From Solanum dulcamara (taxonomy: Eukaryota > Streptophyta > Magnoliopsida > Solanales > Solanaceae), in assembly GCF_947179165.1 (NCBI RefSeq), contig NC_077240.1:58228501-58292500 (forward strand): a stretch of DNA of 64,000 bases, written 5' to 3'. Below the pieces are notes generated by a model that did not search any database, was not told where the DNA came from, and saw nothing but the letters and a program-made list of their open reading frames with translations. Shown here one piece after another: positions 17,441 through 56,985 of this stretch. The first letter of the stretch is position 1. Every line of letters begins with the position of its first letter. The position numbers and the translations under genes were made by a program.

Positions 17441-17741
17441 TACTAGATATATATGAGTTCCTGTTTGTACGGATTCAATATATATTATTTAATTTATTTA
17501 AATTTATGTAGCACAAATAACATTAGGAGAATCAATCAAATTTTTATATAATTTTAAAATATTTTAAGTTTTTAATTATTGTAATAAATAATACTTTTAA
17601 ATTAATTTTTGAATAATATATGTTACTCACTCTGTACCCACTTATGTGGCACATGTGAAATTTTGAAAGTTAATTTTAGTATGGTCTTTTAATGTAATTT
17701 TCAAATAATATATGTTACTTCCTCTGTTTCAACTTATGTGA

Positions 17742-17834
17742 CACATGTGAAATTTTGAAAGTCAATTAAATTTTTAGTATTTTTTTAAATATTTTAATTT
17801 GTTAATTAGTATGACTTTCAAAATTTCACATGTG
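17742..17834. repeat. Perfect 23-bp inverted repeat (hairpin or small MITE)
   Basis: The arm 17742-17764 (CACATGTGAAATTTTGAAAG plus TCA) is the exact reverse complement of 17812-17834, with a 47-base AT-rich loop. It lies within the repeat array and directly before a SINE fragment. Confidence 0.75.
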
Positions 17835-17840
17835 CCATGA

Positions 17841-17962
17841 CCTTGGAAACAGCCTCTGACAGAAATGCAAGGTAAGGCTGCGTACAATAGATCCTTGTGG
17901 TCGGGCCCTTCTCCGGATCCTGCGCATATCGGGAGCTTTAGTGCACCGGACTGCCTTTTTTT
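17841..17962 (+). mobile_element. Au-type SINE fragment
   Basis: It contains the conserved SINE words CCTTGGAAACAGCCTC, GGTAAGGCTGCGTACAATAG, CTTGTGGTCGGGCCCTTC and GAGCTTTAGTGCACCGG, ending in a T run. The 5' tRNA-like promoter part is missing. ATGAC just before and after may be a short target duplication. Such SINEs are mobilised in trans by LINE enzymes. Confidence 0.82.
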
Positions 17963-20394
17963 ATGACTTATATTACTCTTAATTAACGCAAAATTTTAAA
18001 TAATATATGTTATTTCTCCTATCCCAATTTATGTGGCACTTATGAAATTTCGAGAGTTAACCAAATTGCTAATATGTTTTTAATATTTTAAGTTATGATT
18101 TATAGTACTCTTAACGTAATTTTAAATAATATATGTTACTTCATCTGTTTCAATTTATGTGGCACATATGAAATTTCGAGAGTTAATCACATTTTATATG
18201 TTTTTCAAATATTTTAAATTATTAATTATTGTAATTTATAGTACTCTTAACGTCATTTTTAAATAATACATGTTACTTCCTCAGTCCTAATTATGTAGTA
18301 CGGGTGAAATTTCAAGAGTTAACCAATCCCAATTTATGTGGCATGTGTGAAATTTTGAGAGTTAATTACATTTAAATATGCTTTTCAAATATCTTAAGTT
18401 ATTAATTATTGCGATTTCTAATACTTTTAACGGAATTTTTTCAAATAATATATGTTACTTTCACTGTTTTAATTATATACTACGAGTGAATTTCGATAGT
18501 AAATCATATTTTTAATATTTTAAGTTAATTTTTAATACTATTTTTATAAAGAAAGTCGAAGAAAAGCGCAAGCCGGTCAATTCACTTAATACGAGAAACC
18601 GGAAAGGCAAGGACGTGAATGGGAAAGAAATACAGAGAGGTAGAAGTGAACAGCTTCCACTAAGTTCCTTACGGAAGAGCAATATTTACACGTGTTACTC
18701 TATAAGCCTCCAAATTAAGACACAATAGTAGACAGATATTACACGGTATAAAATTACGAAAATATCATTATATATATTCTTCAATTTATTTAAATTTATG
18801 TGGTACAAATAATATTAGGAGAGTCAATCAAATTTCTATATAATTTTTAAATATTATAGTACTTTTAACATAATTTTTAAGTAATATAAATTACTCATTT
18901 TGTCGCAATTTATGTGACACATGTGAAACTTTGAGAGTCAATCAAATTTTCATATGTTTTTTAAAAATATTTTAAATTATTAATTATTATCATTTATAAT
19001 ACTCTTAATTAACGTAATTTTTAAATAATATATGTTCCTCTCTCTCGCGCATGTGGTATATGTGAAAATTTGAGAGTTGATCAAATTTAATATGTTTTTT
19101 TAAATATTTTTAAATTGTTAATAAATTATTGTGATTTATAATTCTCCTAACGTACTTTTCAAATAATATATGTCATTCCACTGTCCCAATTTATGTTGCA
19201 CAGTTGAAACTTTGAAAGTTAATCAAAACGTAATTTTCAAATGATAAATGTTACTTCATCTGTCTCAATTTATGTGACACATCTGAAATTTGAGAGCTGA
19301 TCAAATTTTTAATATATTTTTTAAATATTTTAAATTGTTAATACATAGTACTCTTACAGTAATTACGTAGTTTTTAAATAACATATTATAATACTATTTT
19401 TTCATAAATTAAAATAAAATTACTAATTATAAATAATGTAAATGATCAGATAATTTATCATTAAAATACAAAATAAAAAATTTAACTATGTGTGGAGCTT
19501 GGATGACTAAGCAGTTAGCTTGACCCCAAGCTCCTCACATTCTCTCTTAAATAATAGAGTAATATACTAGATATAAAAGCACATGCAAAGACGGGCCTAA
19601 TATATAGTATTTTATTTATCTCATTTTATGTGGACACGAATAGAATTAGAAGAGTTAATCAAATTTTTATATAATTTTTAAATATTACAGTACTTCTAAT
19701 ATAATTTTTAAATAATATATGTTACTCGCTTTGTCGTAATTTATGTGGCACATTTGAAATTTTGAGAGTCAACAATTTTTCATATGTTTTTTTAAATATT
19801 TTAAGTTGTTAATTATTGTCATTTATAATATTCTTAATTAACGTAATTTTCAAATAATATAGGTTTCTCTCTCTCGTGCACGTGACTCATGTGAAAATTT
19901 GAGAGTTAGTCAAATTTAATATGTTTTTTTAAATATATTTTAAAGTTGTTTATTAATTATTGTGATTTGTAATATCATAACTTAATTTTCAAATAATATA
20001 TGTTATTCTTCTATCCTAATTTATGTAGCACAGTTGAAATTTTGAAAGTTAATCAAAAAGTAATTTTTAAATAATATATGTTACTCCCTATGTCCTAGTC
20101 TATGTGGCACATGTGAAATTTGAGAGTTAATCAATTTTTTAATATATATTTGAAATATTTTAGGTTTTTAATTATTGTGATATATAGCTTTCAAATATTT
20201 TAAGTTGTTAGTTATTGTGATATATAGTACTCTTAACGCAATTTTTAAATAACATATTATAATACTATTTTTTGTAACTTTACACAATATAACAGAAAAA
20301 AATAAGACAAATAAATTAATATAAAAGGAATATTAAGTATATAAAATAGAAGAAATTAAAGGAGAAGGGTAAATCGATCAAATGACCGGATGAC

Positions 20395-20531
20395 CCTAAG
20401 CCACTAAAGCTTCCCGCTATACAGGGTCCGGGAAAGGGCCTCACAACAAGGGTCTATTGTACGCAGTCTTATCTTGTATTTTTGTCAGAGGTTGTTTCCA
20501 AGGTTTAAACTCGTGACCTTCTGATCACATA
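20395..20531 (-). mobile_element. Au-type SINE fragment, opposite strand
   Basis: On the minus strand it contains a B-box-like GGTCACGAGTTTAAACC (20503-20519), then CTTGGAAACAACCTC, GACTGCGTACAATAGACC, TTTCCCGGACCCTG and GAAGCTTTAGTGG. It is more diverged than the copy at 17841 but extends further toward the 5' end. It lies in the AT-rich array. Confidence 0.8.
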
Positions 20532-21621
20532 GTTTCCTATATATATATATATATATATGTATGTAAGTCCCTGTATATATCACTCAATTTGTCTCAATTT
20601 ATGCGGTATGGATAGACGTAGGAGAGTCAATCAAATTTTTAAATATTTTTAAGTTATAAATTATTACGATTTGTATTAGATTTTACGTAATTTATAATAA
20701 TATATATCACTCACTCTGTCTCAATTTATTTGGCACATGCGAATTTTTGAGAGCCAATGGAATTTATAATATTTCTCAAAAATATTTTAAATTATTAATT
20801 ATTATAATTTATAATATCTTTTTTTCGTTTAAAATACTATACATACTAAAAACAAAAGTAAATGGAGAAAGCACGAAATATAAATAGAGGAAAATGAAGC
20901 AGAAGGAAAAATTGGTCAATTCATCGACTGCTCCTAAGCTGATCACATTCTCTTTAAGAATTTTAAATAATTTTTAAATATTTTAAGTTGTTAATTATTG
21001 TGATTTATAGTATTTTTAAATGTAATTTTCAAATAATATATACCACTTATTATGTCCCAATTTATATGGCACATGTAAAAATTTAAAAGTCAACTAAATT
21101 TTTAGAATATTTTAAATTGTTAATTATTATGACTTATAATATTTTTAATTAACGTAATTTTCAAATAATATAAGTTACTCACTTTATTTAGTACAAGTAA
21201 AATCTCGAAAGTCAATTAAATTTGTAATATAATGTACTTTTCAAATAATATATTACGCGATCTGTCCTTAAATTAAAATAATTTTATTACTTTTATTCTC
21301 ATACTATTCTTATTGTTAAGTGACTACATAAAATAATACTAATCAAACAGATGAAATGTGTATCTATAACATAGAAGTCAAGTAAAATAAAATAAAGTAA
21401 GTAATAAAATTATGCAACCAAAATGAACTGAAGTTCCAATGAAAGAAATTTATGAAAAGACGTGGCCATCCATGGAAAAGCCCAAAAAGACGAAGCTGCA
21501 GTTTCACACTACCAGGAGAATAATTGGCACAGAAATTTGGTAAATTACCAAAGTAACCTCTTGACCCTAAGCTTCTCTCATTCCCTCTTTAGTCTTTCCC
21601 TCTTATATAAAAGAGTAATAA

Positions 21622-21863
21622 TACTAGTAAGGAATATTATTTGCACCGATCCAATAATATTAATCTAGTTTCAACTTTATTTTTAAAAAATATGTTTAAA
21701 TATGAATCTAATCTTTAAAATATTTTTTTTAATTTTAAAAACTATTATTCTAAATTAATAGCATTATAATGTTTTAACGATCAAACATCTACTAAATCTT
21801 AAATCATAATAATCATATTAGAGAAAAAAATATTTATTAATTTTCAAATTTTTTGTTATGTTT
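21622..21863 (+). repeat. Dispersed repeat, copy 1 (matches 56766-56985)
   Basis: Starting at ACTAGTAAGGAATATTATTT it follows the same course as 56766 onward through GATCCAATAATATTAATC, AATCTAATCTTTAAAATAT and AATCATATTAGAGAAA. It forms the left flank of the LINE. The LINE target duplication starts at its end. Confidence 0.8.
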
Positions 21864-21868
21864 ACGTG

Positions 21869-21874
<6 letters not shown>
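21864..21874. repeat. LINE target site duplication ACGTGAGGTTT (left)
   Basis: It matches 33606-33616 exactly. The last three T residues cannot be separated from the poly(T) tail. Confidence 0.88.
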
Positions 21875-21910
<36 letters not shown>

Positions 21911-22445
21911 GGAACAGACCCTACACGAGGCTCCCACCTCTCGTGCACAGTCAGGGGTTAAGCAACACCCCCAAGCCTTAACATAAATAATCAAAATAAA
22001 AATACAAGGAGGGGGACATAAACCTTACCTCCGATCTTATGGTGGTTCATAAGTCGGCTAACCTATTATGGTCGGCTAACTCATCCCCGATACAAAAAGA
22101 GACTAACTATAACTAGAAAGCAGTAAACCTGTGAGAGGACTCCTCCCGGTACAATTCAACTATGAAAGCATAAATGAGGGAGACTCTCCCCTTCCATGAG
22201 AAAAAAGAAAAGTAACCTACACTAGTCCTATTCCAACTATGCTACGTACCAGACATAGCTACATTGAAGAAGAACAAGTATACGAAACTTCTATCTCGCA
22301 TGGGATGGGAAATTCTTTTCATCTTTGCTCTTTTTAGTCTTGTCGTACCAAGAAAATCTGCACAGACAGACAAAACCAGCAACATGCACAAGCAACCAAG
22401 TCTGGAGGTTGTTGTACGTGGGTGTGTTGGTTTTGGCCTCTGTTG
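21872..22445 (-). other. LINE 3' UTR and poly(A) tail
   Basis: On the minus strand the last 500 bases contain AAGGCTTGGGGGTGTTGCTT and GGTGGGAGCCTCGTGTAGGG and end in 36 A residues. I recall similar GGGAGCCTCGTG words before the tail of other plant LINEs. No coding frame of note. Confidence 0.75.
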
Positions 22446-25400
22446 TTACTGATGCTGTTGAACTTCATCTTTCAATTCTGCACTTTCAGCTTCAGCTCTG
22501 TGGTTGAGTTGTTGTTTGGTGTGTGGCTGAGTAGTTGTTTGGTGTTGTGTTTCCACAGTATGTATATGGAGTTGATGGAGGTGTATCATTCTACAGCTAC
22601 TCATGATATTGTTGTTGGTTCTTGGATGTTGTCTCTGAGGGTGTTGGAGTTCCTTCTGGGTTCCACTGTTAGCTTGTATTTGTTCCTTGTCTGCTTCAAG
22701 TTGGTGTAGTTGTTGCAGCTGTTGATGGAATGCATCCAAGGCTGCCAATCTGCAGGTTCTGATGGCTGCAGTCTCCCTAGGCTGCTTGTTGGTCTTTGTT
22801 ATGAGGTGGTTAGACTTCTTGGAGTACCTGTACAGAAAAACAAAACAAACAAACTTGTATATGTTTCTTGTCTGCTGCAGGTGGATGGAGTTGTTGCTGG
22901 GGTGACTGCTCTTGGGGCTCAATGCAGCTTCAAGTAGGAAGCTGCAGCTGGGGTACCTGCATAAATCAAAACGACTGCACCTCACAACCAAGGGGATCTG
23001 CAGGCTGCTGTACCCATGTTCCTTGTGTGCTGCCAGTTGGTAGAGTGTTTGCTGTGGTGTGTTGATGTTAGAGAGTGTGGATGTCCCTAAGAAAAAAAAA
23101 CAATCAGCCAAAGACAAACAGCCAAACAAACACAAAAACCAGAAGGAAGTTGCATTTCTGCATAGTCCTTGTGGAGGCCTCTTAGTAATTGTTTTGGTAT
23201 TTGTTTTGGTGGTTGTAGTTGTGATGTGTTCTATGTAGGTGTTGGGAAGACATGTTGATGAGTCCATCCTGACATCTGCATCTACACAACAAACAAGAAC
23301 CAGCAAGAAAGGAGCTGAGGTTAATAGAAAAGATCTCAAACAAGTGTGCATCTTCTTGTTGCTTCCTTTGTGATTAGGTTGCTTGTTGGTGTCAGTTACC
23401 CAAGAATGGATGTCCTTTGTTGTGATCAGGTTCAAATTCTTGGAGTACCTGCACAGACAATCAAAACCAACAAACCACACAACCCAAGAAATCTGCATGC
23501 TGCTGTAACCAATAGTAGTACTATTAGGTTGTATTTGTTCCTTGTCTGCTGCATGTTGGTGGAGTTGTTGCTGGGGTGTGTTGATAATAGAGAGTGTGGT
23601 TGACCAACTGAGTGTGTTGCTCCATAGAAGCCCCAGGACATTGCATCCCTCATAGCAGTTCCAAAGAGGGCCTGCATAAGTGGACAAAGGCCATGTCCAA
23701 AAAGATGGAGAAGAACAAGGCCAAATACTGGATTGGATGTTATGGGATTGTGTCTGTGAATTCCTGGTGATCAACTCCAATTTCTGATGGAATAGCTCCC
23801 CAGTTTTTGATGTCCCTAAGCAAAAACTAACAGCCAAATACAAACAACCAAACAACCACAAAATCCAGAAGGAAGTTGCTGCTCTGCACAGTCCTTGTGT
23901 AGGACTCTTAGTGATGGCTGCAGGTTCCCTAGGCTGCTTGTTGGTCTTTGTTTTGAGGTGGTTAGACTTCTTGGAATAGCTCTCCAATTTCTGATGGAAT
24001 AGCTCTCCAGTTGTTGATGTACCTGCAGCTACACAACAACCAGGAGCCAGCAGGACAGGGGTTGCACAATGGGCTGCTGCAAGTGTTGAGCTTTTAGAGA
24101 GTTCATGGATGGAGTGGAGAAACTGCTGAAGGTTTGTGTGCAGCTCCAATTTTGTGTTGGAGCATGCTTCACAGAACAGAGGATCTTCTCTTGTGATCTG
24201 GTTCAAGTTGCTTGTGTGTGGCTCCCCATTAGTTATTGCACCTAAACAAAAACAAACAAAGGAATACATACAACCAAACAAGTACCAAAAACAATAGGGG
24301 GCTCCATTTCTGCACACTCCTTTTGTTTCAGTCATGGAGAGTCCTGTAGCAGTGTTGTCCTCCATGTATTTGTTGTTAGAGCATGCTGGTGTATATCTCC
24401 AACAACCTGCAATTACACAGCAAATAACCAAAGACAAGCAAGGACCTGTACAGGTTAATAGAAGAGAAAGGATCTCAAAAAGAGTTTTGGAGCCTGTTAG
24501 CATTTTCCATATCGCTCGACTAACGTCTCCTCTTATCCGTTTGAGCTGGAACTTTCTGAAGTTTGCATATATATTCTCTCCTTTATCCATGCAAAGTTTG
24601 AAGGCTTGTTTCCCAAGATGGAGCTTCAATTTAGCAAAATTCTTCCTTTTTAATTTTAAGACAGCTGATTGTTTCAAGCTCGCTCGCCTAACGTTTCTAA
24701 TTGTCCGTTTCGGCTGAAATTTCTTGGGCCTTGTCAAAAAAACATAAGCTACAATCCTGCAAATTTTGGGAGCCTTTGGACAGGCCCACATGATACCCCT
24801 CACCCTGCACCTGCTGCCCTGCTGAGGCTTAGAGGCTGCAGGGGGTTTGGAGGATGTATTTGTGCTCTTCTCTATGTATTTGTTGTTGAAGAGTGCTGCT
24901 ATATCACTCCAAACACCTGCAGTAATACAGCAAACAAACCCAAACAAGACATAATATACACAGACTAGCAATAGAGATAGGACCTCATTAAGAGCCTTGG
25001 AGACTGTTATCATTTTCCAAGTCGCTCGACTAACGTTTCCAATTCTCCGTTTGAGCTGAAACTTTATGAAGGTAGTATATATATCCTCTCCTTTAGTCCT
25101 GCAAAATGTGAAGGCTTGTTTCCCAAGTTGGAGGATCCAAATTACTAAAGACCCTCTCTTTATGCTTAAGGCAGCTGAATGTTTCCATGTCGCTCGCCTA
25201 ACGCCTCCGATTATTCGTTTGGGCTGAAACTTTTTGGGACTTGTCAAAATATTATATTCTACCATCCTGCAAAGATTGGGGGCCATTGGACAGGTCCACA
25301 TGTTACTCCTCACCCTGCACCTGCTGCCCTGCTGAAGCTTAGAGGTTGCAGGGTGTTTGGAAGTTGTTTTTGTGCTCTTGTCTATGTATTTGTTGTTGAG

Positions 25401-25940
25401 GAATGCTAATATATTACTCCATACACCTGCAATAATACAGCAAACAAGCCCAAACAAAACATAATATACACAGACTAGCAATAAAGAAGGGACCTCAGTA
25501 AGAGCTTTGGAGAGTGTTATCATTTTCCAAGTCGCTCGACTAACGTCTCCAATTATCCATTTGAGTTGAAAATTTATGGAGTTAGCATATATATCCTCTC
25601 CTTCAGTCCTGCAAAGTTTGAAGACTTTTTTCCCAAGTTGGAGGGTCCAAATTACTAAAGACCCTCTCTTTAGGCTTAAGGCAGCTGAATGTTTCCATGT
25701 CGCTCGCCTAACGCCTCCAATTATCCGTTTGGGATGAAACTTCTTGGGACTTGTCAAAATAATATATTCTAACATCCTGCAAAGTTTGGGGGGCATTGGA
25801 CAAGTCCACATGCTACTCCACACCCTGCACCTGCTGCCCTGTACCATCCTGCTAAATCCTAAATCTATTGGTAAGGAGATTATCCTATAAGAGCAGTAAA
25901 TTAGGGGGACTCTCCCTTTTTCAATGGACCTAATTATCAT
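22446..25940 (-). CDS. Third long open frame of the LINE (1164 codons), repeat-built, function unknown
   Basis: An uninterrupted frame starts 41 bp after the RT frame stop and in a different frame from it. I do not recognise any domain. The N-terminal half holds three near-identical 170-residue repeats, each with SRCRVRS, KKFQPKRIIGGVRRATWK, KLCRTEGEDIYA and a hydrophobic stretch (LLLVCVYYVLFG). Within each repeat, a FQ-KR-V-RATWK module occurs twice. The rest mixes shorter modules (GLCRNATSFWFL, NTPQQ-L-QLAADKE, CRYSKKSNHL) and ends Gln/His-rich. The hydrophobic stretches coincide with pyrimidine-rich tracts ending in TGCAG or TTAG, which look like splice acceptors, so the frame may not be translated as one protein. 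An open frame of this length by chance is very unlikely; whether it is a protein remains open. Confidence 0.45.
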   Translation of the reverse strand: MIIRSIEKGRVPLIYCSYRIISLPIDLGFSRMVQGSRCRVWSSMWTCPMPPKLCRMLEYIILTSPKKFHPKRIIGGVRRATWKHSAALSLKRGSLVIWTLQLGKKVFKLCRTEGEDIYANSINFQLKWIIGDVSRATWKMITLSKALTEVPSLLLVCVYYVLFGLVCCIIAGVWSNILAFLNNKYIDKSTKTTSKHPATSKLQQGSRCRVRSNMWTCPMAPNLCRMVEYNILTSPKKFQPKRIIGGVRRATWKHSAALSIKRGSLVIWILQLGKQAFTFCRTKGEDIYTTFIKFQLKRRIGNVSRATWKMITVSKALNEVLSLLLVCVYYVLFGFVCCITAGVWSDIAALFNNKYIEKSTNTSSKPPAASKPQQGSRCRVRGIMWACPKAPKICRIVAYVFLTRPKKFQPKRTIRNVRRASLKQSAVLKLKRKNFAKLKLHLGKQAFKLCMDKGENIYANFRKFQLKRIRGDVSRAIWKMLTGSKTLFEILSLLLTCTGPCLSLVICCVIAGCWRYTPACSNNKYMEDNTATGLSMTETKGVCRNGAPYCFWYLFGCMYSFVCFCLGAITNGEPHTSNLNQITREDPLFCEACSNTKLELHTNLQQFLHSIHELSKSSTLAAAHCATPVLLAPGCCVAAGTSTTGELFHQKLESYSKKSNHLKTKTNKQPREPAAITKSPTQGLCRAATSFWILWLFGCLYLAVSFCLGTSKTGELFHQKLELITRNSQTQSHNIQSSIWPCSSPSFWTWPLSTYAGPLWNCYEGCNVLGLLWSNTLSWSTTLSIINTPQQQLHQHAADKEQIQPNSTTIGYSSMQISWVVWFVGFDCLCRYSKNLNLITTKDIHSWVTDTNKQPNHKGSNKKMHTCLRSFLLTSAPFLLVLVCCVDADVRMDSSTCLPNTYIEHITTTTTKTNTKTITKRPPQGLCRNATSFWFLCLFGCLSLADCFFFLGTSTLSNINTPQQTLYQLAAHKEHGYSSLQIPLVVRCSRFDLCRYPSCSFLLEAALSPKSSHPSNNSIHLQQTRNIYKFVCFVFLYRYSKKSNHLITKTNKQPRETAAIRTCRLAALDAFHQQLQQLHQLEADKEQIQANSGTQKELQHPQRQHPRTNNNIMSSCRMIHLHQLHIHTVETQHQTTTQPHTKQQLNHRAEAESAELKDEVQQHQ
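24330..25850 (-). repeat. Three tandem copies of a 510-bp unit inside the LINE
   Basis: Anchors recur at exactly 510-bp steps: CACCCTGCAC at 24801, 25311 and 25821, and TCGCTCGACTAACG at 24512, 25022 and 25532. 510 is 170 codons, so the frame is kept. Copy boundaries are approximate. Confidence 0.92.
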
Positions 25941-25981
25941 TATTAATATCAGTTAATAACTCAATGTATGAAGAAGTTCCT

Positions 25982-28900
25982 TCAATGTGGTTGATTGATC
26001 TTCTTCATCTTGGTTCTCCTGAAGCTAGCCATGCCAGCTTTGTCCATTTTGTAATGTCCCTTGGTCTCTCTTGGAAGCTGCTGAAAGCTGTAGTAGTGTT
26101 GTGTATAGCTTTTCATGTGGCTTTCCTTTGAGAGTGAATCTGCAGTGTAATTAGCTTCCCTAAAGATATGACTGAACTGGAAATTCTCCAGTTTGCTAAC
26201 CAATACCTGCAATTCAATAGTATAAGCAACAATGTTCCATGGAGGTTTAGCCTCTTGTTTGAGCCACTTGATTAGAAGTTCAGAATCCACTTCAAGGGCT
26301 ACCCTGCTGTATCCATGTTGTAGGCACCACTGAATACCAATAATTGCAGCCTGCACTTCAGCTTGGTTATTAGAACCACAACCTAGTGGAGATGCAAAAG
26401 CATATATTAACACTCCATTATGGTCCCTTAGAATGCCCCCTGCCCCTATCTTCCCTGGATTGTTAAGGGCACTCCCATCTGTGTTTAGTTTGATCATTGT
26501 AGGCTGTGGTTTAGTCCAGCATACTTTGGTTATTCTCAATTCATGTTGGCTTTTTTCAACCATGGTAACCAAATCTGCCCAATTACTTGGCAAATCAATA
26601 TATGGATACACAGTGGAGATAAGCATATATAGATCTTTGGATATTGAGAATATTACTCTAGTTGCATTAGACTTCTTGCCCCCATACTTGCAGGCACATC
26701 TATTCTTCCATAGATTCCAACACACAAAAATGGGGGTGGCCTGCATTACTAACTTATGTAGCTCATTGTTAGTTTTGATTAGCCACCACCTCATCAATAG
26801 GTTTTTTAGATGAATGTTGCTGTGTTGCAGACCCCAGTACCCTGAGAAGTGCTTCCATATGTGTTGTGCAAAGTAACCTGATACAAAGATATGCTCTATA
26901 TCATCAAGACCTGCTCTATAACAACAGGAGCATGCTGCAGGAGCATGTCCAAATGCTACTATTCTGTCATTTGTGGGGAGTTTAAGTCTGAAAGCTCTCC
27001 AAAGCAGAAAAGAGGCCTTGAAAGGAATACTATTGTGCCATATGTTGCTGTTAGTGGTTGATCTTGTCTTTTTCTTCCTTACCAACTCCCAGGCTGATGA
27101 ACAAGTGAAATTACCATGAGAGTTAGGCTTCCAGTAAGCTTGATCCTGCATATTTAGATTGTAGCTGATGGGAGTGCTGAGAATTCTGTGCACCAGCTGA
27201 GGGGGTGCATGTTTTCTTACTTTCTCTTCATTCCATCCTCCATTTTCCATGAATTCTGATACAATAGAGTTATTCAATCTGGGGAGACTTTCATTGTGGT
27301 AAGCTAAGGGACCTACCCCTAGCCAATCATCCCACCAAAAGCTGCTTGTTCCAGACTTAATCCACCACTGTATATGAGGTTCTATATCCTTTTTGTTGCT
27401 CATCATATGCTTCCACATTAGGGACTGTCCTGTGTTCCACTTTTTAATGACTGGATGAGCCCTTTGGCAGTATTTTGCTTTAAGGAATTCCCCCCATAGT
27501 GTCTTCTTTGATCTGAAAGTCCACCACTGTTTGTATTGGAAGGATAAGCACACATCCTCTAATGTTTTAACACCTATACCACCCTCCTCATAAGGATAAC
27601 TGAGAGTATCCCAAGAGGCCCAGTGATATTTTCTTCTTTCAGTATCCCATCCCCAAAAGAAGTCAGCAATTAGTCTTCTGATCTGATTCATGGTGGTCTT
27701 GGTAGGATTGATAGCTGACAGCAGGTGTATAGGAATGGATTGCAGCACTGTTTTCACCAAGGTGACTCTACCTCCATAGCTTAACATTTTAGTCTGCCAT
27801 CCCCTAATCCTGCTTAGAACCTTAGAGACCATACTAGAGAAGTATATGATCCTTTGTCTTTCTATATATAGGGGGCAGCCTAGGTAAGTGATTGGGCCAT
27901 GAGTGCATTTGTATCCTGTGATCATGCTGACCCTATCCACCACACCAGAGGGAGTATTCAGTGGCATCATGATTTGACTCTTATCTTTATTGATAAGTTG
28001 TCCTGAAATAGCTTCATACAGTTTAAGAGTTTTGGTAATCAGTGTAAGTGAGAAGTTGCTGGTAGATGTGAAAATGATCACATCATCTGCAAAGCTCAAG
28101 TGATTTACTTGAGGACCTCTTCTTTCCATCTGGAAACCTGTGTATAAATGATGGTGATGAAGATTGTTGAGAAGCCTAGACAGAACTTCAGCTCCAATGA
28201 TGAATAAGGTAGGGGATAGGGGGTCTCCTTGCTTGAGTCCTCTTGTAGAGTGGAAGAAGCCATGCCTTGCACCATTAATGATGACTGAGTACCAATTGTT
28301 TGACATAATCCTCCAAACCATATCAATCAACACTTCTCCAAACCCCATTTTCCTCATGACCCTACAAATGAATGACCAAGAGACCCTATCATAGGCCTTG
28401 GCCATATCCAGCTTTATCACCACATTATCCCCAGCCTTTGGTCTCTTAATATTGTGGATGATTTCTTGAGCTAACATTATGTTCTCAGCAATACTCCTAC
28501 CTTTAACAAATCCAGATTGGTTATCTGAGATTAGCTGAGGCACTATAGGAGCAATTCTGATGCTTATCAACTTAGAAATGATCTTGTTAGTGAAGTTGCT
28601 GAGAGAAATAGGCCTGTATTCTGATAGGCTGTTGGGATGCTCATTCTTAGGAAGTAGAGCTAAGCATGCATGAGAAATAAACTTGGGAATACCATGTCCA
28701 TTGAAGAAATACTGGACTAATCTCAGTAGGTCTTCACAGATGATATCCCAGCATGAATGAAAGAATTTCCCATTCATTCCATCTGGTCCAGCAGCTGATG
28801 TAGGGCTCATAGAAAATACAACTTTCTTCAGCTCATCCATAGTAGGTAAGGCTTGCAGGCTCTCATTCTGCTCCTCTGTAACCATCCTTGGAATGCACTT

Positions 28901-31837
28901 AAGAACATCTTCCCTGATCAGTCTCTCTTCTCCAGTGAATATTTTTTCAAAGTGTGCTGTGGCAGCTCTTGCAATATTGTCTTCACCTTGAATAGTATTG
29001 CCTTGTTCATCACTAATCTGATGGATGAATAACCTTCTTCTTCTTCCTCTGATAATAGCATGAAAATAGCTGGTATTGGCATCTCCATCTTTGAACCAAT
29101 GAAGTTGACTTTTCTGCTTTAAGATAGCCTTCTCCATCTTCAGATATCTGATGTACTGAGCATTGATCTGATGTAGCTTGGACCTGTTCTCTTCAGTATT
29201 GTCACTGATTATTTTCTCTTCAGCTTGTCTCACCTGCTCTTCATATTCTTTTACTGAAGCAAAGATGTCCCCAAACTCATTTCTTGACCACTTACTAAGA
29301 GTATTAGACACTCTTTTCAGCTTTTGTTGGAAGGTTCCCATTGGATTTCCTTCCACAGGATTATCCCAACATGCTTTTACAGTGCTAAGGAAATTGTCAT
29401 TGTCTGTCCAGCAGTTTAGAAATTTGAAATACTTGATAACATTACCTTGTTTTGCCCTGCTTTCCATCAATAGAGGGCAATGGTCAGATCCTGTGGAGGC
29501 TAAGTGACTGACAGTTGTTACAGACATGACTTCTAACCAAGAATCATTAACCATGGCCCTGTCAAGTCTTTTCCAAATTCTAGCATCTTTGTCCCTATTG
29601 TTGCACCAGGTGAACTTCTGCCCACAGAACCCCAGATCAGTGAGTCCACATGCTTCTATCACACTAATAAACTCAAAGCTCTTGTTCACATTATATGGCT
29701 GGCCCCCCATCTTTTCTTCAACATCTGTAATAACATTGAAGTCTCCAATGGTGCACCAAGGCTTCTCCTTACTGGAGAACTGCAACATCTTGTCCCATAA
29801 GTCTCTTCTCACAGCATCCTCATCCTCAGAGTCAGTCATTGGTTGATAATCACTGTCCTCTTCATCTTCCAGAGGCTGGTCATCAGAATCTTCCTCATTC
29901 TCAGACTCACACACAGCATACTCATCTTCTTGTATGTTGAGGGTGTAGGTGAGCTGAGGTAGATCAGTAGCTCTCTCAGTGATGATTTCAGCTGGATTTC
30001 TGGGAGATGTAGGAATGCAGTGGGCTTGGAGAGGAATGATATTCATCCCCACCTGGTCATCATCTAAGACAATTTGTTGACACCCCTGCTCCCCTTGCTG
30101 TACTATCACACTGTCCATTTTGGGAGTTTGACATTTATCAGTTGAGTTCATTTCTTTTATTTTCTTTTTGATGGCTTCTCTTATTTTCTTACTCAGCTTA
30201 TTCTTCTGAACAGTAGTACTTTTACCACTAGTACTGGGATGAGATCCCAGATCTTTGGCCATGGCACCTTTGCTAGCTTGCATGGTAAGTTCAACAATAC
30301 TCTCATGCATAGCATGAGGGGGTACCCCTCCCCTATTGGTTTCCCCATCCTGCATGTTAGTGGGGTTCTCCTGTACACTTCCAGCCTTTCCTCCTTCAAC
30401 TACCAGATCAGCAGCAACAATATTAATCTTTGGGAGGTTCAGGGGTATTGGGAGTGATAAGTCAATACCTGAGTTCCTTGCAACATTGTTCCCTTGAGCA
30501 ATACCTGTTAAGATAGTACTTGTGCATTCAATATGGGGGGGTGGGGTTTGTGGGAGAGATAAGTCAATACCTTGTCTCTGATTTGGAGTGCTTTCCTGCA
30601 TTGTTGATGAACTCCTCACTATTGAGTTCTTTTGAATGTGTGTGTTCCCTGCAATTTGGTTAGTGGGTTGGTCTTGCATAGCAAGATCAACATGAACATT
30701 TGGAATAGAGATAGAAGTAGTAGTTTTACCTGGATTTACTTTGCTTTGCTGCACTGCAACATACTTACCTTTGGTTAATACTCCTGCAGCTCTTATTTCT
30801 TGGTTCAGCTGGCCATTAATGTGTCCTTTGTTCTGTTTCCTTCTCTGAGTTTGCCAAGCATTGTCCTCCTTGCTAGTCTTATTGTTCTGTGACTGTTGTG
30901 GTATATTGGATGTCAAAGGATTTTGGTGCACCTGTAAGTTGTCAGGTTGAGGTTGGTTGTGCTCTTTGCTCTCTCCCTGAGTTTGACTTGTATTTTTTGT
31001 TGTATTTTCAGAACTTTTCTTTTTCATTTGTTCTTCATCTCTTCTCTTGATATTACACACATGCACCTTGTGCCCCTGATGCTTGCAATACATGCAGTAC
31101 TCAGGTACACTCTCATATAAAAGTTCCTGCCATCTTCCTATTGTAGGATCACTTTTGTCATGCCCAAGCCATACATGATGGGGTCTTTCTTGTGTAAGGT
31201 TGACCTGCACTCTTACCTTAGCAGTACTTCCCCTAGTCTTCTGAATAGAGGCTGCATCCATGAAGAGTACTTTCCCCACAGGAGCAAGGAGAGTGGTCAG
31301 GAACTCCTTATCATAACAGTGCCAGGGGAGTTCAGGAAGGGCAACCCAGACTAGGACAATGGGAGTCTCCTCCTCAGGCCTAAAAGTTGGAGTCCATGTT
31401 TGTATTCTCATGGATTGGCCTTCAATGGTCATTCTTTGCTTGGTCCACACAGTTGTGTAGTCCAATTCATTGTCCAAGTCAATATACACATGTCTGGCAT
31501 TGAAATGGGCAATTTTAACACCCCCTACCAATTGAGTTTGGAGAATGAAGCTTCTCCTTATTAGCTCCACCTTAGGCATAGTGTTGCTGAATTTTCCAAC
31601 AAGGGTATATTTACACTTTTCAGCCAATTTCACCATGAAATCCTCTTTGTCATAAATGACAGCTGGTAGGCCTTGTCTGGTGGTGTAAATAGGAGCAGAC
31701 AAATTAAGAGGGATATCATTTTTTGCTTGGTTCAGCCTCAGTTTGGAAGCAAAGGTTTGGATGACTGTATATGGGGCTGGCTGAGGGACCTGTTCCTTTC
31801 TATTAGGGAACTGGTTCTTTGGGGGATTTTTAGTCAT
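25982..31837 (-). CDS. LINE fused polyprotein: gag-like DUF4283 and zinc knuckle, partial endonuclease, RT, RNase H (1951 aa)
   Basis: Residues about 60-200 resemble the DUF4283 gag-like fold, followed by a CCHC knuckle (CMYCKHQGHKVHVC, about 246-260) and a long polar region. At about 683 the sequence enters an APE-type endonuclease in its middle (RRDLWDKML, GDFNVI near 698, SDHCP near 783). The N-terminal half of that domain, including the first Asn and the Glu of the active site, is absent. The RT has SEYRPISL, GFVKGRS, LDMAKAYDRV and the FADD active site at about 1248-1251. A zinc-binding region and plant-type RNase H (LNTDGSALNNPG, AEVQAA, EVDSELL, ANYTADSLSK, about 1775-1905) follow. In plant L1s gag and endonuclease/RT are normally separate ORFs; here an internal deletion seems to have fused them in frame. 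It would act in nuclear target-primed reverse transcription. Confidence 0.92.
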   Translation of the reverse strand: MTKNPPKNQFPNRKEQVPQPAPYTVIQTFASKLRLNQAKNDIPLNLSAPIYTTRQGLPAVIYDKEDFMVKLAEKCKYTLVGKFSNTMPKVELIRRSFILQTQLVGGVKIAHFNARHVYIDLDNELDYTTVWTKQRMTIEGQSMRIQTWTPTFRPEEETPIVLVWVALPELPWHCYDKEFLTTLLAPVGKVLFMDAASIQKTRGSTAKVRVQVNLTQERPHHVWLGHDKSDPTIGRWQELLYESVPEYCMYCKHQGHKVHVCNIKRRDEEQMKKKSSENTTKNTSQTQGESKEHNQPQPDNLQVHQNPLTSNIPQQSQNNKTSKEDNAWQTQRRKQNKGHINGQLNQEIRAAGVLTKGKYVAVQQSKVNPGKTTTSISIPNVHVDLAMQDQPTNQIAGNTHIQKNSIVRSSSTMQESTPNQRQGIDLSLPQTPPPHIECTSTILTGIAQGNNVARNSGIDLSLPIPLNLPKINIVAADLVVEGGKAGSVQENPTNMQDGETNRGGVPPHAMHESIVELTMQASKGAMAKDLGSHPSTSGKSTTVQKNKLSKKIREAIKKKIKEMNSTDKCQTPKMDSVIVQQGEQGCQQIVLDDDQVGMNIIPLQAHCIPTSPRNPAEIITERATDLPQLTYTLNIQEDEYAVCESENEEDSDDQPLEDEEDSDYQPMTDSEDEDAVRRDLWDKMLQFSSKEKPWCTIGDFNVITDVEEKMGGQPYNVNKSFEFISVIEACGLTDLGFCGQKFTWCNNRDKDARIWKRLDRAMVNDSWLEVMSVTTVSHLASTGSDHCPLLMESRAKQGNVIKYFKFLNCWTDNDNFLSTVKACWDNPVEGNPMGTFQQKLKRVSNTLSKWSRNEFGDIFASVKEYEEQVRQAEEKIISDNTEENRSKLHQINAQYIRYLKMEKAILKQKSQLHWFKDGDANTSYFHAIIRGRRRRLFIHQISDEQGNTIQGEDNIARAATAHFEKIFTGEERLIREDVLKCIPRMVTEEQNESLQALPTMDELKKVVFSMSPTSAAGPDGMNGKFFHSCWDIICEDLLRLVQYFFNGHGIPKFISHACLALLPKNEHPNSLSEYRPISLSNFTNKIISKLISIRIAPIVPQLISDNQSGFVKGRSIAENIMLAQEIIHNIKRPKAGDNVVIKLDMAKAYDRVSWSFICRVMRKMGFGEVLIDMVWRIMSNNWYSVIINGARHGFFHSTRGLKQGDPLSPTLFIIGAEVLSRLLNNLHHHHLYTGFQMERRGPQVNHLSFADDVIIFTSTSNFSLTLITKTLKLYEAISGQLINKDKSQIMMPLNTPSGVVDRVSMITGYKCTHGPITYLGCPLYIERQRIIYFSSMVSKVLSRIRGWQTKMLSYGGRVTLVKTVLQSIPIHLLSAINPTKTTMNQIRRLIADFFWGWDTERRKYHWASWDTLSYPYEEGGIGVKTLEDVCLSFQYKQWWTFRSKKTLWGEFLKAKYCQRAHPVIKKWNTGQSLMWKHMMSNKKDIEPHIQWWIKSGTSSFWWDDWLGVGPLAYHNESLPRLNNSIVSEFMENGGWNEEKVRKHAPPQLVHRILSTPISYNLNMQDQAYWKPNSHGNFTCSSAWELVRKKKTRSTTNSNIWHNSIPFKASFLLWRAFRLKLPTNDRIVAFGHAPAACSCCYRAGLDDIEHIFVSGYFAQHIWKHFSGYWGLQHSNIHLKNLLMRWWLIKTNNELHKLVMQATPIFVCWNLWKNRCACKYGGKKSNATRVIFSISKDLYMLISTVYPYIDLPSNWADLVTMVEKSQHELRITKVCWTKPQPTMIKLNTDGSALNNPGKIGAGGILRDHNGVLIYAFASPLGCGSNNQAEVQAAIIGIQWCLQHGYSRVALEVDSELLIKWLKQEAKPPWNIVAYTIELQVLVSKLENFQFSHIFREANYTADSLSKESHMKSYTQHYYSFQQLPRETKGHYKMDKAGMASFRRTKMKKINQPH

Positions 31838-31855
31838 GCTTTCTATTGGCTGGGG

Positions 31856-33514
31856 CTAGTTACTAACAGGTTTGGGCCCCTGGTTAATGGGGTTAAGCCT
31901 ATCAAAATTGGAGGAGACTTTAGGGAAGCTATTTTGAATACTTACAGGCTTATGCATTTGCATCATGTTGTTGGCCCTGTTTTGAGAGTTGGTATTAGGC
32001 TGGGGATTTGTATGCTCAGTAACCTGCATGACCATACTAGGAGCAGTACCAGGGAGTGCACAGGCTCCCCTGGAGTTCAACAAGTTAGCATCAACAATTA
32101 TAGGATTAGAGGGATGCCCATCTGCACTATGCTTACCAATGTGATGGATAGACTCATTAACATTAGGCACCACATTATTATTCAAACATTGCACAAGATT
32201 ATTAGGATTCTCAATATGCTTAGACTGTATTTGCATATACTGACCCTGCATATTGAGTTCAAGAGAGTGAGAGGACTTACCTTGTGCTCCTGTGGTTGAG
32301 CTGCTGCTGTGGGGGTGGTTCAATCCTTTTGGCATTTGATTCGTTTGATTATTTTGGGATTGAATACCATTGGCAAGGTACTGAGATTGATAATTTGCCA
32401 ATGTAATCTCCTCAGTTCTAACATCACTGTGACTGTGACTATCTTCCTCAAGCAAGTCTTGACGACTTTTTGGATTTGAACTTTTCGGAGCTAATTTGGG
32501 GTCTGTAGTTTGTGTAGGAAGCCTCACAACAGCCTTAGGAACATTTTGATATTGGCCCCTCATCATTTGTCTCGCCGGAACTCCGGCGACCCCACTGTGG
32601 TTGTCGTCTTGACGACTTTTCAAATTTGACTCGATTGGTAGTGATTCGAGGCTTGCCACATAGCTAGGAAGCTTCTCAACACTGTCATGAACCTGTTGAA
32701 CTATGCCTTGAACCAGTTGTCTCGCCGGAGCTCCGGCGCCCTCTTCACGTTCAGAATTCAAATTAAAATTCGAAGCTTTTGGTAGATATTCGAGCTGGTT
32801 TTGGATACCTGATAGGTTCTCCTTATCCAACTTAGTGAGTTGGCATTGATTTTGAGATGAAATTGTTGCCTGAGCTCCGGTGCCAAAATCGCGGTCAGTG
32901 GTCAAATTGAAATTTGAGATTCCAAATTGATATTCGAGCTGGTTGTTTATGCCTGTGAGGTGCTCCATGTCCAGCTGAGTATTTTGACATTGAGTTTGGT
33001 CCTTTAAGCTTGCCGGAGTTCCGGCGCCGGCGTCGATATTATCACCGGCGATAGCTACGCCGGTGAAACTTGTCCCATTATGTGCGCCATCGTCTGGGGA
33101 ACAATCCCCAGTGCTCATATCCTCTCGAACATGGCCGGAACTAGGTTGAACGAGTGATGGAAACTGCGGCGGCGCAGTTAACTTCGCCTCTTCAGCCGCC
33201 AGTGAATATCTCGACCCTGGATGATTCAACCGATTTGATTTTTGCATATTGTGTAGTTCTTGCAATGCTGATGATTCCCCAATTGTTTGTTCGATTCGAA
33301 TCCGCCCAGCTTTCTCCAAATCGTTGATGTGATGAACCCAGGCGAGTTGCTCCTCCGACAGTGCTACAGTGATCGCCGACTGATTTTGCACTTTGGAGGG
33401 GCTACGGGTGGAATTTTCCGATGCTACGACTTGCGTTGCATTCATGTCGTCGTTATCTTCGTTCCTATCTTTCGAACGAAATTTTCCTACGTCGGGAGGT
33501 GGTTCCCCTCCCAT
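31856..33514 (-). CDS. LINE 5' open frame (552 aa), low-complexity, with about 50-residue repeats
   Basis: The frame starts MGGEPPPDVGKFRSK 91 bp inside the element and ends with TAG at 31856-31858. The same frame continues six codons later at the Met of the next ORF, so the two are separated by a single amber codon. Residues about 163-360 hold four degenerate repeats of about 50 residues (GAGTPA, GTGAQA, GAGAPARQ, VAGVPARQ; with INNQLEY and ISNFNL in the first two). The rest is rich in Ser, Asn and Gln. No known domain. It may be the N-terminal extension of the gag protein. Either the TAG is a mutation in this copy, or it is a read-through or restart arrangement. Confidence 0.75.
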   Translation of the reverse strand: MGGEPPPDVGKFRSKDRNEDNDDMNATQVVASENSTRSPSKVQNQSAITVALSEEQLAWVHHINDLEKAGRIRIEQTIGESSALQELHNMQKSNRLNHPGSRYSLAAEEAKLTAPPQFPSLVQPSSGHVREDMSTGDCSPDDGAHNGTSFTGVAIAGDNIDAGAGTPASLKDQTQCQNTQLDMEHLTGINNQLEYQFGISNFNLTTDRDFGTGAQATISSQNQCQLTKLDKENLSGIQNQLEYLPKASNFNLNSEREEGAGAPARQLVQGIVQQVHDSVEKLPSYVASLESLPIESNLKSRQDDNHSGVAGVPARQMMRGQYQNVPKAVVRLPTQTTDPKLAPKSSNPKSRQDLLEEDSHSHSDVRTEEITLANYQSQYLANGIQSQNNQTNQMPKGLNHPHSSSSTTGAQGKSSHSLELNMQGQYMQIQSKHIENPNNLVQCLNNNVVPNVNESIHHIGKHSADGHPSNPIIVDANLLNSRGACALPGTAPSMVMQVTEHTNPQPNTNSQNRANNMMQMHKPVSIQNSFPKVSSNFDRLNPINQGPKPVSN

Positions 33515-33605
33515 TTTCGTCTTGATGACAATAGTGCCCTTAGTTGAGAGCTTTGTTTCTAGAGAGATGTTAGAGAGAGAAAATTGGTTGCGATATGAAG
33601 TATTA
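33515..33605 (-). other. LINE 5' leader
   Basis: 91 bp between the right target duplication and the first ATG. It includes a CTCTCTCTAACATCTCTCTAG-like pyrimidine stretch. Plant L1 promoters lie in such leaders, but nothing specific can be identified. Confidence 0.5.
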
Positions 33606-33616
33606 ACGTGAGGTTT
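33606..33616. repeat. LINE target site duplication ACGTGAGGTTT (right)
   Basis: The partner of 21864-21874; it marks the 5' end of the LINE. Confidence 0.88.
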
Positions 33617-34757
33617 GATTGACAGTAATTGTAATTACTTTATTTCCTTTTTCGCCCATTACGATTCGGAACACCCCCAAATTGACAGGCCTAAATTCAA
33701 AAAGACAACTTGCGGAAGACAATAAATCAAATTATAATAATAATAATAACAATAAGCGACAGACAGGAATATCATATAAGAAACAGGTCATGTCATAAAT
33801 CTGTAGTTCGATACAAAACATACAAAAAAAGCTCGAAAGTGACCAAGAAGATAAACTAACATAAGATCAAATCTTCGGACATGATGTCACATATACAGGA
33901 GCTACTAAGTATAGAAAAACTATATATACAAGAGAACTGACTAAGCAAAATACAAAAATACAAGTCAGTACAAAAGTGGAAAAGTAGCAAGTCTCTGGAC
34001 GTTAGGATCTCACCACGATCCGAACATGTGACGGCCAAGGGAGATCCAACGCTCACGGAGGGTGGCTCATACTGGGAGTTACATCAGAAAAAGATGCGGA
34101 ATTGTAATATGAGTACTAAAACACGGAATTCTCAATAGGCATTATATACCGACCGAGCTTAGAAAGATCAAGTATATAAAAAGAAACACGATGATACTAG
34201 CGGTATAAAAAGCAACACGATGATACTAGTGATACAAGTATAAGGATAAGATCTAAGTGATAACAATAATACTACAAAGAACAAACATTAATACTAATAG
34301 CTGGAAACAATGATACACACAAATACGAGCCACACAAACACATTCAATATTCAAGTCACACAGTGATGATATGCAAATGCTAAATGAAGAGAAGTAAGAA
34401 ATTCAAAAGAACCTTTGAGCCGCCTGGAATGAATGCCCTAGACTTAACCGTGAAATATTAGAAACCCGGGTGTATGTCAACAGGTCATCCGAAATGATAC
34501 CTCAGACTTATAATAGAATAACAGTAACCCAGATATATATAAACGAACTGCCCGGAGATACTTCAAACTTATCAATAGAATATATAGAATAATGTAGCCC
34601 GGAACTAAGTTGACAGGCTGACCGAAATGACAACTCAGACTTATCAGTATTGCCATTTTAAAATCATATAAGTCCCAAATCTTATCAATTCTTCTAATTA
34701 AACTCCTATTTAATACAATTCAATTCCTTATCAGAGAAGTCTCAACAAAATGTATGC
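33617..34757 (-). repeat. Old LTR-type fragment, left of the gypsy insertion
   Basis: Non-coding. From 33808 on, it aligns with 56998-57905 at roughly four bases in five, including GGAGCTACTAAG, CTCACCACGATCCG and GTGACGGCCAAGGGAGATCC. On the minus strand these read like the end of a gypsy LTR. At 34440-34650 a unit of about 75 bp (words GTGTATGTCAACAGG, ATGATACCTCAGACTTA) repeats imperfectly. Confidence 0.6.
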
Positions 34758-34762: not shown

Positions 34763-34803
34763 TGTAATGACCTTGAGGGTGATTTTCGTAAATTTGTACA
34801 AAA

Positions 34804-34851
34804 CACGCGTGAACAGTAACACGCGTGAACAGTAACACGCGTGAACAGTAA
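34804..34851 (+). repeat. Three tandem copies of ACACGCGTGAACAGTA in the LTR
   Basis: Exact 16-bp units about 40 bp inside the 5' LTR, repeated at 42074-42121 in the 3' LTR. Each unit contains ACGCGT (CGCG core), a possible transcription-factor site. Confidence 0.9.
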
Positions 34852-35940
34852 CTTTTTGGGCAGAAAATGCCCCTTTCTTCCCATTTCAATATTTTTTTCA
34901 ACATTTGTTTGAGTTCTTGAACTCCTTGAGGTGATTTGAGAAGAGATTTTCGAGGCAAAGTGTTGGGTAAGTGATTTTTGACCTAAAACCTTCCTTTTTC
35001 ATTAAGTTTTTGACGATTTTAACTCTTAAATTTTAGTTTCAAACCCCAAAAATCTTTGTTTCTTCCCTAATCCGAATTTAAGGAAAATTGTTATTTCCAA
35101 CTCGTTTTGAGCTCTATTTTTATGGGTTTTTCAACCATGAGTTCCTTATTACCAATAGAATGGGATTGTTCAATAAATTTCCAGATTTGACCCTTTTCGA
35201 AAATAGTTAATTTTTGGACCATTTTACCCCCGGTTCCGAAACCTATCAATATGGGTGTCATTGGACTCCTTGTGACGTGTATGTTTCATTGTTGATAGTG
35301 GGTTGTCATTCCGGGCGCTGAATTCGAGAGTTGCTTGTCCGGTGGAGGTATTCGAGTGCGGTTTCGGCAATTGAGGTAGGTTTAGCTATCTTTCTTTGAG
35401 ATTGAGATGGGGTAATTAGTCATTCATATGTTATAGACTTTGGGATGGGGTTGTAGTATGAGTTGAGAATGTTATATATATTATGATGTCCGTGTGGAGA
35501 CTTATTTATTAATGTGTTGCCGTGACGGGGTTAATTTGTATTACATAGCCCGTGTGGGGGCCTTATTTGTTATCTTATTTGCTTTGAGAGCATGTGAATT
35601 ATGATTTGCCTAAGAGAGAGGCTTGAGTATATTATTTGACTTGTGATGCCGCCTGAGAAATTGAGTTGGGGGTTTTGAGCATACTTGAGTATTGAAATAT
35701 TGTTGAGAAAGGGGTGAATATTTAAATGAAAGTGTGTTCTTCCCGTTATTATTTATTGAGGGTGAATATCATGTGTAGGTTAAGTTTTGAGAACTTTGAA
35801 CATTATACCACATGTGAGTTGATTATTACTTCCATGCATATGTGTTTTGATGCATTCATCCTCATTCATCACATCATGAAATATGGGAAGTTGAGAAATA
35901 TGGAAATTCTTTTTGAGAAAGAAAATGAAACACCTTTAAA

Positions 35941-36141
35941 CCTTTGTATCTTGAGTCCCTGACCGAGGCAGTTTTCCGGCAGGGTAGTGGATGCATTGTG
36001 ATCCCAACCTTTGTATCTTGAGTCCCTGACCGAGGCAGTTTTCCGGCAGGGTAGTGGATGCATTGTGATCCTAACCTTTGTATCTTGAGTCCCTGACCGA
36101 GGCAGTTTTCCGACAGGGTAGTGGATGCATTGTGATCCCTT
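35941..36141 (+). repeat. Three tandem copies of a 67-bp unit in the LTR
   Basis: Units start at 35941, 36008 and 36075 (CCTTTGTATCTTGAGTCCCT). They are nearly identical and also present in the 3' LTR at 43211-43411. Apparent minus-strand frames across this region only translate the repeat. Confidence 0.92.
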
Positions 36142-36908
36142 GACCACGAGGAGGTGGCAAGGATAATGAGATTGAGGTATATGGTCTGCGAGACCCCCAT
36201 GGGTCCTGCTTGGTAGCACAGCTCGGCAGGTGTATACGACAGGCTGTGCGACAGTCTTGATTCCACCGTACCACCACATCATTGCATCATCATATTGCAT
36301 TGCATTGCATTGACATTTGTGCTGCTTGAATTATTTGATTAATTGTGATTATGAGTTGTTATTATACTTTACTCGTGCCACTATATATATAAACTGGCGG
36401 CACCGATGCCGAAGTGGGATTTTTCTGTATGCAGGTGGAAGCGTTCCTTAGTTTATTTCATAGGTTTGATTAATTCCTTATACTCAGTCAGCTAAAACCT
36501 ACTGAGTACATGTGAATTGTACTCACCCCTACTTCTGTGTCCCTTTTTGATGCAGATACTAGTCGGGGTACCCCACGTGGCAGTTAATATTCTAGCGGAT
36601 TGTGTATTCTCAGATTAGTGGTGAGGTCCCAGAATTCGGATCGTCACTAGTCTATCTTTATTTTTCAGTCTTTTGTACCATTCAGAGACTTATGTTGTAT
36701 CTTCAGATTCGAACCTTGTATTAGATGCTCTTTATACTTATGACACCAGGTTTTGGGATAATTTCTTCATTGTTTTTTTTTTATTTATTTAAATCGTGGA
36801 ATCACTTTCCCCTTTGGGAGTCTTGTATGAGTTTTATTTTTAGGGTTACACATCAGATTGGGTTTTGAGATGTGTGCCATCATGACCTCAGTTTTTGGGT
36901 CGTGACAA

Positions 36909-44176: not shown

Positions 44177-44181
44177 AGAAA
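44177..44181. repeat. Gypsy target duplication AGAAA (right)
   Basis: The partner of 34758-34762. Confidence 0.88.
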
Positions 44182-56765: not shown

Positions 56766-56985
56766 CTAGTAAGGAATAGTATGTGCACGGATCCAATAAA
56801 ATTAATCTAGTTTCAACTTTATATTTAAAAATATGTTAAAATATAGATCTAATCTTTAAAATATTTTTTTATTTTAAATACTATTATTCTAAATTAATAG
56901 CATGATAATGTTTTAACGTTCAAACACCTTCTAAATCTTAAATCATAAATAATCATATTAGAGAAAATATATTTATTAATTTTTA
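56766..56985 (+). repeat. Dispersed repeat, copy 2 (matches 21622-21850)
   Basis: Begins ACTAGTAAGGAATAG and follows copy 1 closely. It is joined here to the LTR fragment that also follows copy 1, after the LINE. Confidence 0.8.

Follow-up and report, generated by a model that had tools for sequence, protein, structure and literature searches.

A stop-free third frame at the 3' end of a Solanum dulcamara LINE may be kept open for ribosome passage rather than for its peptide

A 64,000-nucleotide stretch of Solanum dulcamara DNA (contig NC_077240.1, positions 58,228,501 to 58,292,500; by "the window" we mean this whole stretch) holds an L1-type long interspersed nuclear element (LINE) of ~ 11.7 kb on the minus strand, and this element carries a long third open reading frame (ORF3) at its 3' end.

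22446..25940, minus strand: ORF3, from the ATG at 25940 to the stop at 22446, 1164 codons, stop-free, amino acids nearly unconstrained

From sequence comparisons, ORF3 may be a 3' module selected for ribosome read-through, with the peptide secondary. The frame would be selected only for the absence of stops, the passage of ribosomes would serve the retrotransposon RNA, and the module would move between LINE families. We put the probability of this reading at roughly 40%. Coding potential is usually judged by conservation, yet over ~ 1000 codons, in six sequence groups and with ORF2 as a control, openness and protein conservation part ways.

ORF3 contains no stop where 57.0 ± 7.3 are expected (300 first-order Markov sequences, minimum 36), which rules out a chance frame. 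The other two sense frames over the same region (+1 and +2) hold 66 and 58 stops, and the antisense frames hold 43, 30 and 69. An earlier note on this DNA, made from the letters alone, had described a long frame at the LINE 3' end that was very unlikely to have stayed open by chance. Both points stand, and the frame begins 41 nt past the ORF2 stop in the window copy.

The frame is also open elsewhere in the genome. Group A comprises 20 fetched near copies (L011-L030) and group B five (L031-L035), and 12 and 3 of these, respectively, keep the frame open over > 1000 codons when it is read from the usual start. Copies do not agree in the frame or the length of their last 100 to 200 residues. A search of the genome with the protein P0003 gave 101 scored loci, ranked by protein score and so biased to intact copies, 71 of which lack a stop in the matched part, with open frames of up to 1230 codons. 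Four further groups (F2-F5), set by identity and frame length and not by a tree, are represented by one locus of 1.95 kb each, chosen to be stop-free. Each of these loci has one frame open over all 650 codons, and each of its other sense frames contains 24 to 39 stops. The frame is thus open in six groups (A, B and F2-F5) that are up to 22% apart in DNA and have rearranged modules, and all 37 between-group ORF3 alignments are in phase. Stops common in sister copies, which the earlier note would have counted against a protein, were not found: none is fixed in the sister groups sampled. Group A copies differ from the window copy mostly by 0 to 2% per aligned stretch and the groups from one another by 5 to 22%, and by this comparison the choice of open distant copies cannot explain the missing stops.

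The 3' region appears to have a history of its own. Between groups A and B, fixed sites number 7 in 2168 bp of ORF2 and 44 in 1921 bp of ORF3, with the jump at the border between the two. The reverse holds for A and F3, with 68% DNA identity in ORF2 (229 of 342 aligned residues identical) and 81.5% in ORF3. The simplest reading would be that the 3' module was exchanged between LINE lineages.

Pooled values refer to three independent pairs (1881 codons, 307 nonsynonymous and 97 synonymous changes), evaluated under a substitution model fitted to each set separately. The pooled ratio of nonsynonymous to synonymous changes (N/S) is 1.20 times neutral (p 0.13); across 15 pairs of the six groups that share sequences, the lowest and highest values are 0.94 and 1.65 times neutral. 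None of the 404 inherited changes is nonsense, against 18.7 expected (2.6 to 10.8 per pair), a deficit to which our own choice contributes in that the distant copies were picked stop-free, which excludes part of the private nonsense. Among the repeat units described below, the ratio of nonsynonymous to synonymous rates (dN/dS) is 0.94, 1.12 and 1.13 (131 changes by three-way parsimony), and for fixed A-B differences it is 1.01 (634 codons; 10 synonymous, 34 nonsynonymous). The dN/dS test that the earlier note had proposed for the frame thus returns values near 1, one half of what that note would have counted against a protein. In contrast to the inherited changes, private ones include nonsense, at 4 of 91 in ORF3 and 9 of 104 in ORF2 (13 of 195 together), which reflects post-insertion decay; unit and A-B changes include 0 of 172 (Fisher test, 2.6e-4 for ORF2 and ORF3 together, 0.014 for ORF3 alone).

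ORF2 serves as the control, for which one pair, the window and F3 copies, was compared. Over 341 codons (N 155, S 164), its N/S comes to 0.34 times neutral (p 2e-21), replacements score 0.76 versus -0.42 in BLOSUM, and the F3 copy has one stop there. ORF3 in the same two groups (295 codons) is at 1.05 times neutral. By this one pair, selection on the protein is strong in ORF2 where ORF3 is about neutral.

ORF3 is partly repetitive. Units of 510 nt (170 codons) begin at 25841, 25331 and 24821, and the three cover the first 1.5 kb; the remainder consists of shorter modules.

25332..25841, minus strand: 170-codon unit 1
24822..25331, minus strand: 170-codon unit 2
24342..24821, minus strand: unit 3, shorter and more diverged

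The 170-residue repeats keep the frame, as the earlier note had it, with 21 of 25 self-matches of the window ORF3 in phase. Phase is mostly kept as well by self-matches whose start lies past nt 1600, clear of the 510-nt units (window copy, 10 of 13; L030, 16 of 22; L031, 4 of 6). Expansion of one short open unit, which the earlier note had raised as an explanation of the frame, accounts for at most the first 1.5 kb, as the second half is no simple array. Because that half is left uncovered, the expected stops are missing and the diverged units are still open, we reject pure repeat expansion as the cause of openness. A relic, meaning an open stretch that arose by repeat expansion or host-gene capture and has not yet gathered stops, would account for dN/dS near 1 and for the tandem units 1-3, but not for a second half that is not one repeat, nor for the stops that every pair was expected to hold and does not; we regard it as very improbable.

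Within the units, the motif GTTAGKCGAGCGA is kept in 11 of 12 half-units of the window copy and L031, although the search pattern itself fixes these letters, and a longer form of it has three matches in the window where none is expected. Runs of unchanged sites within units reach only the 95% point of shuffles, and we treat the motif as a lead. The RNA of unit 1 (25332-25841, minus strand) folds far better than its shuffles (z -6.0), and units 2 and 3 are nearer to theirs.

The earlier note had suggested a protein with repeated hydrophobic segments. These segments largely coincide with U-rich tracts that resemble splice acceptors and mostly end in CAG|GT.

25427..25453, minus strand: acceptor-like U-rich tract, end of unit 1
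24917, 24407, 24242, 23827, 23449, 23282, 23087 and 22828, minus strand: ends of eight further acceptor-like tracts

In seven hydrophobic segments (591 nt), T makes up 48, 47 and 49% of codon positions 1, 2 and 3. Since T is equally frequent at the three positions, the segments are better described as a U-rich nucleotide tract. With this evenness, the overlap with acceptor-like tracts and little or no protein constraint, the segments find no support as a selected protein trait. The sense strand of ORF3 has 9 acceptor-like sites, against a shuffled mean of 0.55 and a maximum of 3 in 100 shuffles, and the sense strand of ORF1/2 has none; L030 and L031 have 13 each. The nine sites of the window copy fall in two different codon phases. 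Aligned window tracts are kept in 4 of 6, 2 of 4, 3 of 3 and 3 of 4 cases in F2, F3, F4 and F5, where neutral simulation gives 1.3, 0.7, 0.4 and 0.7 (P = 0.007, 0.137, 0.003 and 0.023; the groups are related, so these values are not independent).

The searches agree with the earlier note, which had recognised no family. Pfam gives no ORF3 match above its cut-off (one weak match, CoV_NSP6, has 18.1 bits against a cut-off of 25), NCBIfam gives none at 0.01 and PDB sequences give none at 0.1. For an envelope-like ORF3 we found neither an envelope domain in Pfam nor membrane segments under protein selection. ORF3 could nonetheless encode a long, basic and in part hydrophobic protein with a real accessory role, one that works by its length or bulk make-up or diversifies in conflict with the host. 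Such a protein would explain why the frame is kept in six groups, why N/S stands at 1.20 times neutral in the pool and at up to 1.65 in one pair, why charge changes are fewer than expected and why the first 535 residues have 92 lysines and arginines to 21 aspartates and glutamates. We nevertheless consider it unlikely: N/S is not significantly above neutral, the pooled hydropathy (P 0.10) and BLOSUM scores (P 0.30) of replacements fit neutrality, T does not favour codon position 2 in the hydrophobic segments, there is no domain, the AlphaFold2 model of unit 1 is poor (mean predicted local distance difference test, pLDDT, 41; three sequences), and the C-terminus varies among copies.

The tracts bear on splicing, for which the evidence here consists of RefSeq gene models. 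All 646 residues and the stop of RefSeq P0002 (LOC129890728) are reproduced on L020 by one chain of GT-AG introns (4522, 390, 51, 99 and 331 nt), the only such chain within the ranges searched, and 4 of its 5 acceptors are U-rich tracts. The 99-nt intron, which may come from reads of short copies, corresponds to a segment that L018-L030 have but the window copy and L011-L017 lack, and the P0004 model on L022 skips the same 99 nt. A second GT-AG segment, of 218 nt, occurs in L027 and L030; L011, L018, L019 and L025, the other four copies compared, do not have it.

22735..22736, minus strand: site at which the 99-nt GT-AG segment (held by L018-L030) is missing
22670..22671, minus strand: vicinity of the 218-nt GT-AG segment that L027 and L030 carry

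Near the latter site, the loss in the window copy exceeds that in its sisters by 22 nt, which alters its C-terminal frame. Judged by eye, 2 of six larger indels (99, 218, 22, 128, 47 and 680 nt) fit GT-AG boundaries, those of 99 and 218 nt. An exitron is an in-frame, stop-free, intron-like segment within a coding frame; the 51-, 99- and 390-nt members of the P0002 chain qualify as exitron-like, being GT-AG, in frame, stop-free and multiples of three. Separately, a stretch of 128 nt is missing near 22358 (minus strand) from the window copy and from L011-L014; an acceptor-like end, GTGCAG, directly precedes it, but it does not itself finish in AG.

The 3' region could alternatively be a store of splice acceptors or alternative exons, in which upstream donors yield variable tails and openness keeps those tails long. 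The models of P0002 and P0004, in which pieces of ORF2 or ORF3 are spliced to acceptors further along ORF3, and the retained tracts would suit this. We think it improbable: with nine acceptors in two codon phases, one donor frame would miss the single open frame, openness extends to the stretches between acceptors, and cross-mapping of reads from one copy to another may underlie the gene models.

In the reading that we prefer, selection for ribosome passage, the module keeps two traits, one stop-free frame and a series of U-rich acceptor-like tracts, with amino acids nearly free. Avoidance of stops in one frame only requires a translating ribosome, the near freedom of the amino acids implies that the product matters little, and the retained acceptors suggest that splicing matters. 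Ribosomes may enter ORF3 by reinitiation just past the ORF2 stop (in L042 and L039, the first ATG of ORF3 lies 15 nt past that stop, in the ORF2 frame) and would run to within ~ 540 nt of the poly(A). Plant nonsense-mediated decay (NMD) is described as being set off by introns > 50 nt past a stop and by long 3' untranslated regions (UTRs; PMC3711448). Passing ribosomes would strip the exon-junction complexes left by splicing of the module and shorten the effective 3' UTR. The RNA would thereby escape NMD, with the peptide as a by-product.

Several observations, in addition to the stop-free choice of distant copies, weigh against this reading. Charge-changing replacements are rarer than expected (0.21 versus 0.30, P 0.004) and two pairs (L038-L040 and L038-L039) are slightly conservative in BLOSUM, so the ORF3 protein may not be wholly free of constraint. 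Private ORF3 changes (N:S 59:28) fall below the model's neutral ratio, and counts added up over pairs of open A copies (372 synonymous, 587 nonsynonymous) yield ~ 0.47 on the same scale. The private ratio of ORF2 is nearly the same (64:31), and we therefore infer that the lower within-A ratio reflects a mutational bias affecting copies after insertion. The private ORF3 ratio is not distinguishable from that of fixed A-B changes (31:10; p 0.41), and the ratio of unit changes (86:22) is slightly higher (p 0.07). The antisense strand of ORF3 also exceeds its shuffles in acceptor-like sites (9 versus 1.7), and the 218- and 331-nt segments are not multiples of three, hence not exitron-like. Finally, most ribosomes would already have terminated at the end of ORF1, upstream of where a rescue could act.

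If selection for ribosome passage is the correct explanation, a plant LINE shields its spliced RNA from surveillance by letting ribosomes through, which is testable, and there is reason to look through other elements for long 3' frames that lack an explanation, which searches by protein similarity would miss.

The remainder of the element carries the marks of a plant L1-type LINE, namely a DUF4283 ORF1, an ORF2 with reverse transcriptase, zf-RVT and RNase H, a poly(A) end and a target-site duplication. The 1164-codon ORF3 makes it depart from the plant-LINE plan of two ORFs and a short 3' UTR.

21864..21873, no strand: target-site duplication, 3' side; its minus-strand reading is AACCTCACGT
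21872..21907, minus strand: poly(A) end of the LINE, a T run on the plus strand
21908..22445, minus strand: 3' tail beyond ORF3, with near copies at other genome sites
25982..31837, minus strand: ORF1 (DUF4283) and ORF2 (reverse transcriptase, zf-RVT, RNase H), fused in the window copy
31856..33514, minus strand: N-terminal part of ORF1, separated by a stop in the window copy
33606..33615, no strand: target-site duplication, 5' side, second copy of AACCTCACGT

By Pfam, DUF4283 scores 99.2 bits (cut-off 27.2), the three ORF2 domains are recognised, and no endonuclease family is found at E 0.01 in the 1393-codon ORF2 of L013; the window copy lacks the ORF2 start. A 680-bp deletion near 29811 joins ORF1 to ORF2 in the window copy; it ends at a 4-nt repeat, which rules out an intron. 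ORF1 has a stop at 31856-31858 (minus strand) in this copy and is uninterrupted in L037 and L020, and in L013, L017 and L028 the ORF1 end and ORF2 start overlap in TGATG. Given the ORF1 stop and the fusing deletion, the window copy is probably not autonomous. No Rfam families were found on 21800-33900.

The LINE sits in an older repeat: its flanks (33795-34754 and 21618-21844) match adjoining pieces near 56983/56987 in a related stretch without the insertion (56761-57894). Nearby, a Ty3/Gypsy-type long terminal repeat retrotransposon (37115-42022, plus strand) encodes gag, protease, reverse transcriptase, integrase and a chromodomain. Its 2146-bp repeats (34763-36908 and 42033-44177) are 99.6% identical, and it is therefore probably a young insertion. 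An AT-rich array of diverged repeats of ~ 78 to 138 bp occupies 17477-21268.

Protein searches for ORF3 relatives returned only S. dulcamara proteins, each within a capped set of candidates or a limited length range, which does not show that the frame is absent elsewhere, and a literature search, mostly outside subscription journals, returned no such frame in a plant LINE. Like exitrons, the module has in-frame, stop-free, intron-like segments inside a frame; unlike exitrons, they are arrayed within a mobile element, and the protein there is under little constraint. Human L1 elements are known to give rise to spliced integrated retrotransposed elements (SpIREs; PMC5860796), and the exact loss of the 99- and 218-nt GT-AG segments relative to sister copies is SpIRE-like. 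By this analogy, spliced RNA may have been reinserted, with multiplication of the resulting copies afterwards. The SpIREs described there involve the 5' UTR and ORF1 and are mostly dead ends, whereas here the 3' frame is affected and shorter forms multiplied. Rotifer LTR and Penelope-like retroelements, as described in PMC5408684, also have a third ORF past pol, ORF3 types shared between lineages and mostly neutral within-genome variation, but those ORF3s have envelope-like, GDSL or DEDDy domains and none was found here. The poplar LINE Celine, in its published description (PMC11288735), shares the DUF4283 ORF1, the reverse transcriptase ORF2, the poly(A) tail and the target-site duplication. 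It has 6,114 bp, two ORFs and a 189-bp 3' UTR, in contrast to the ~ 11.7 kb and third frame of 1164 codons reported here.

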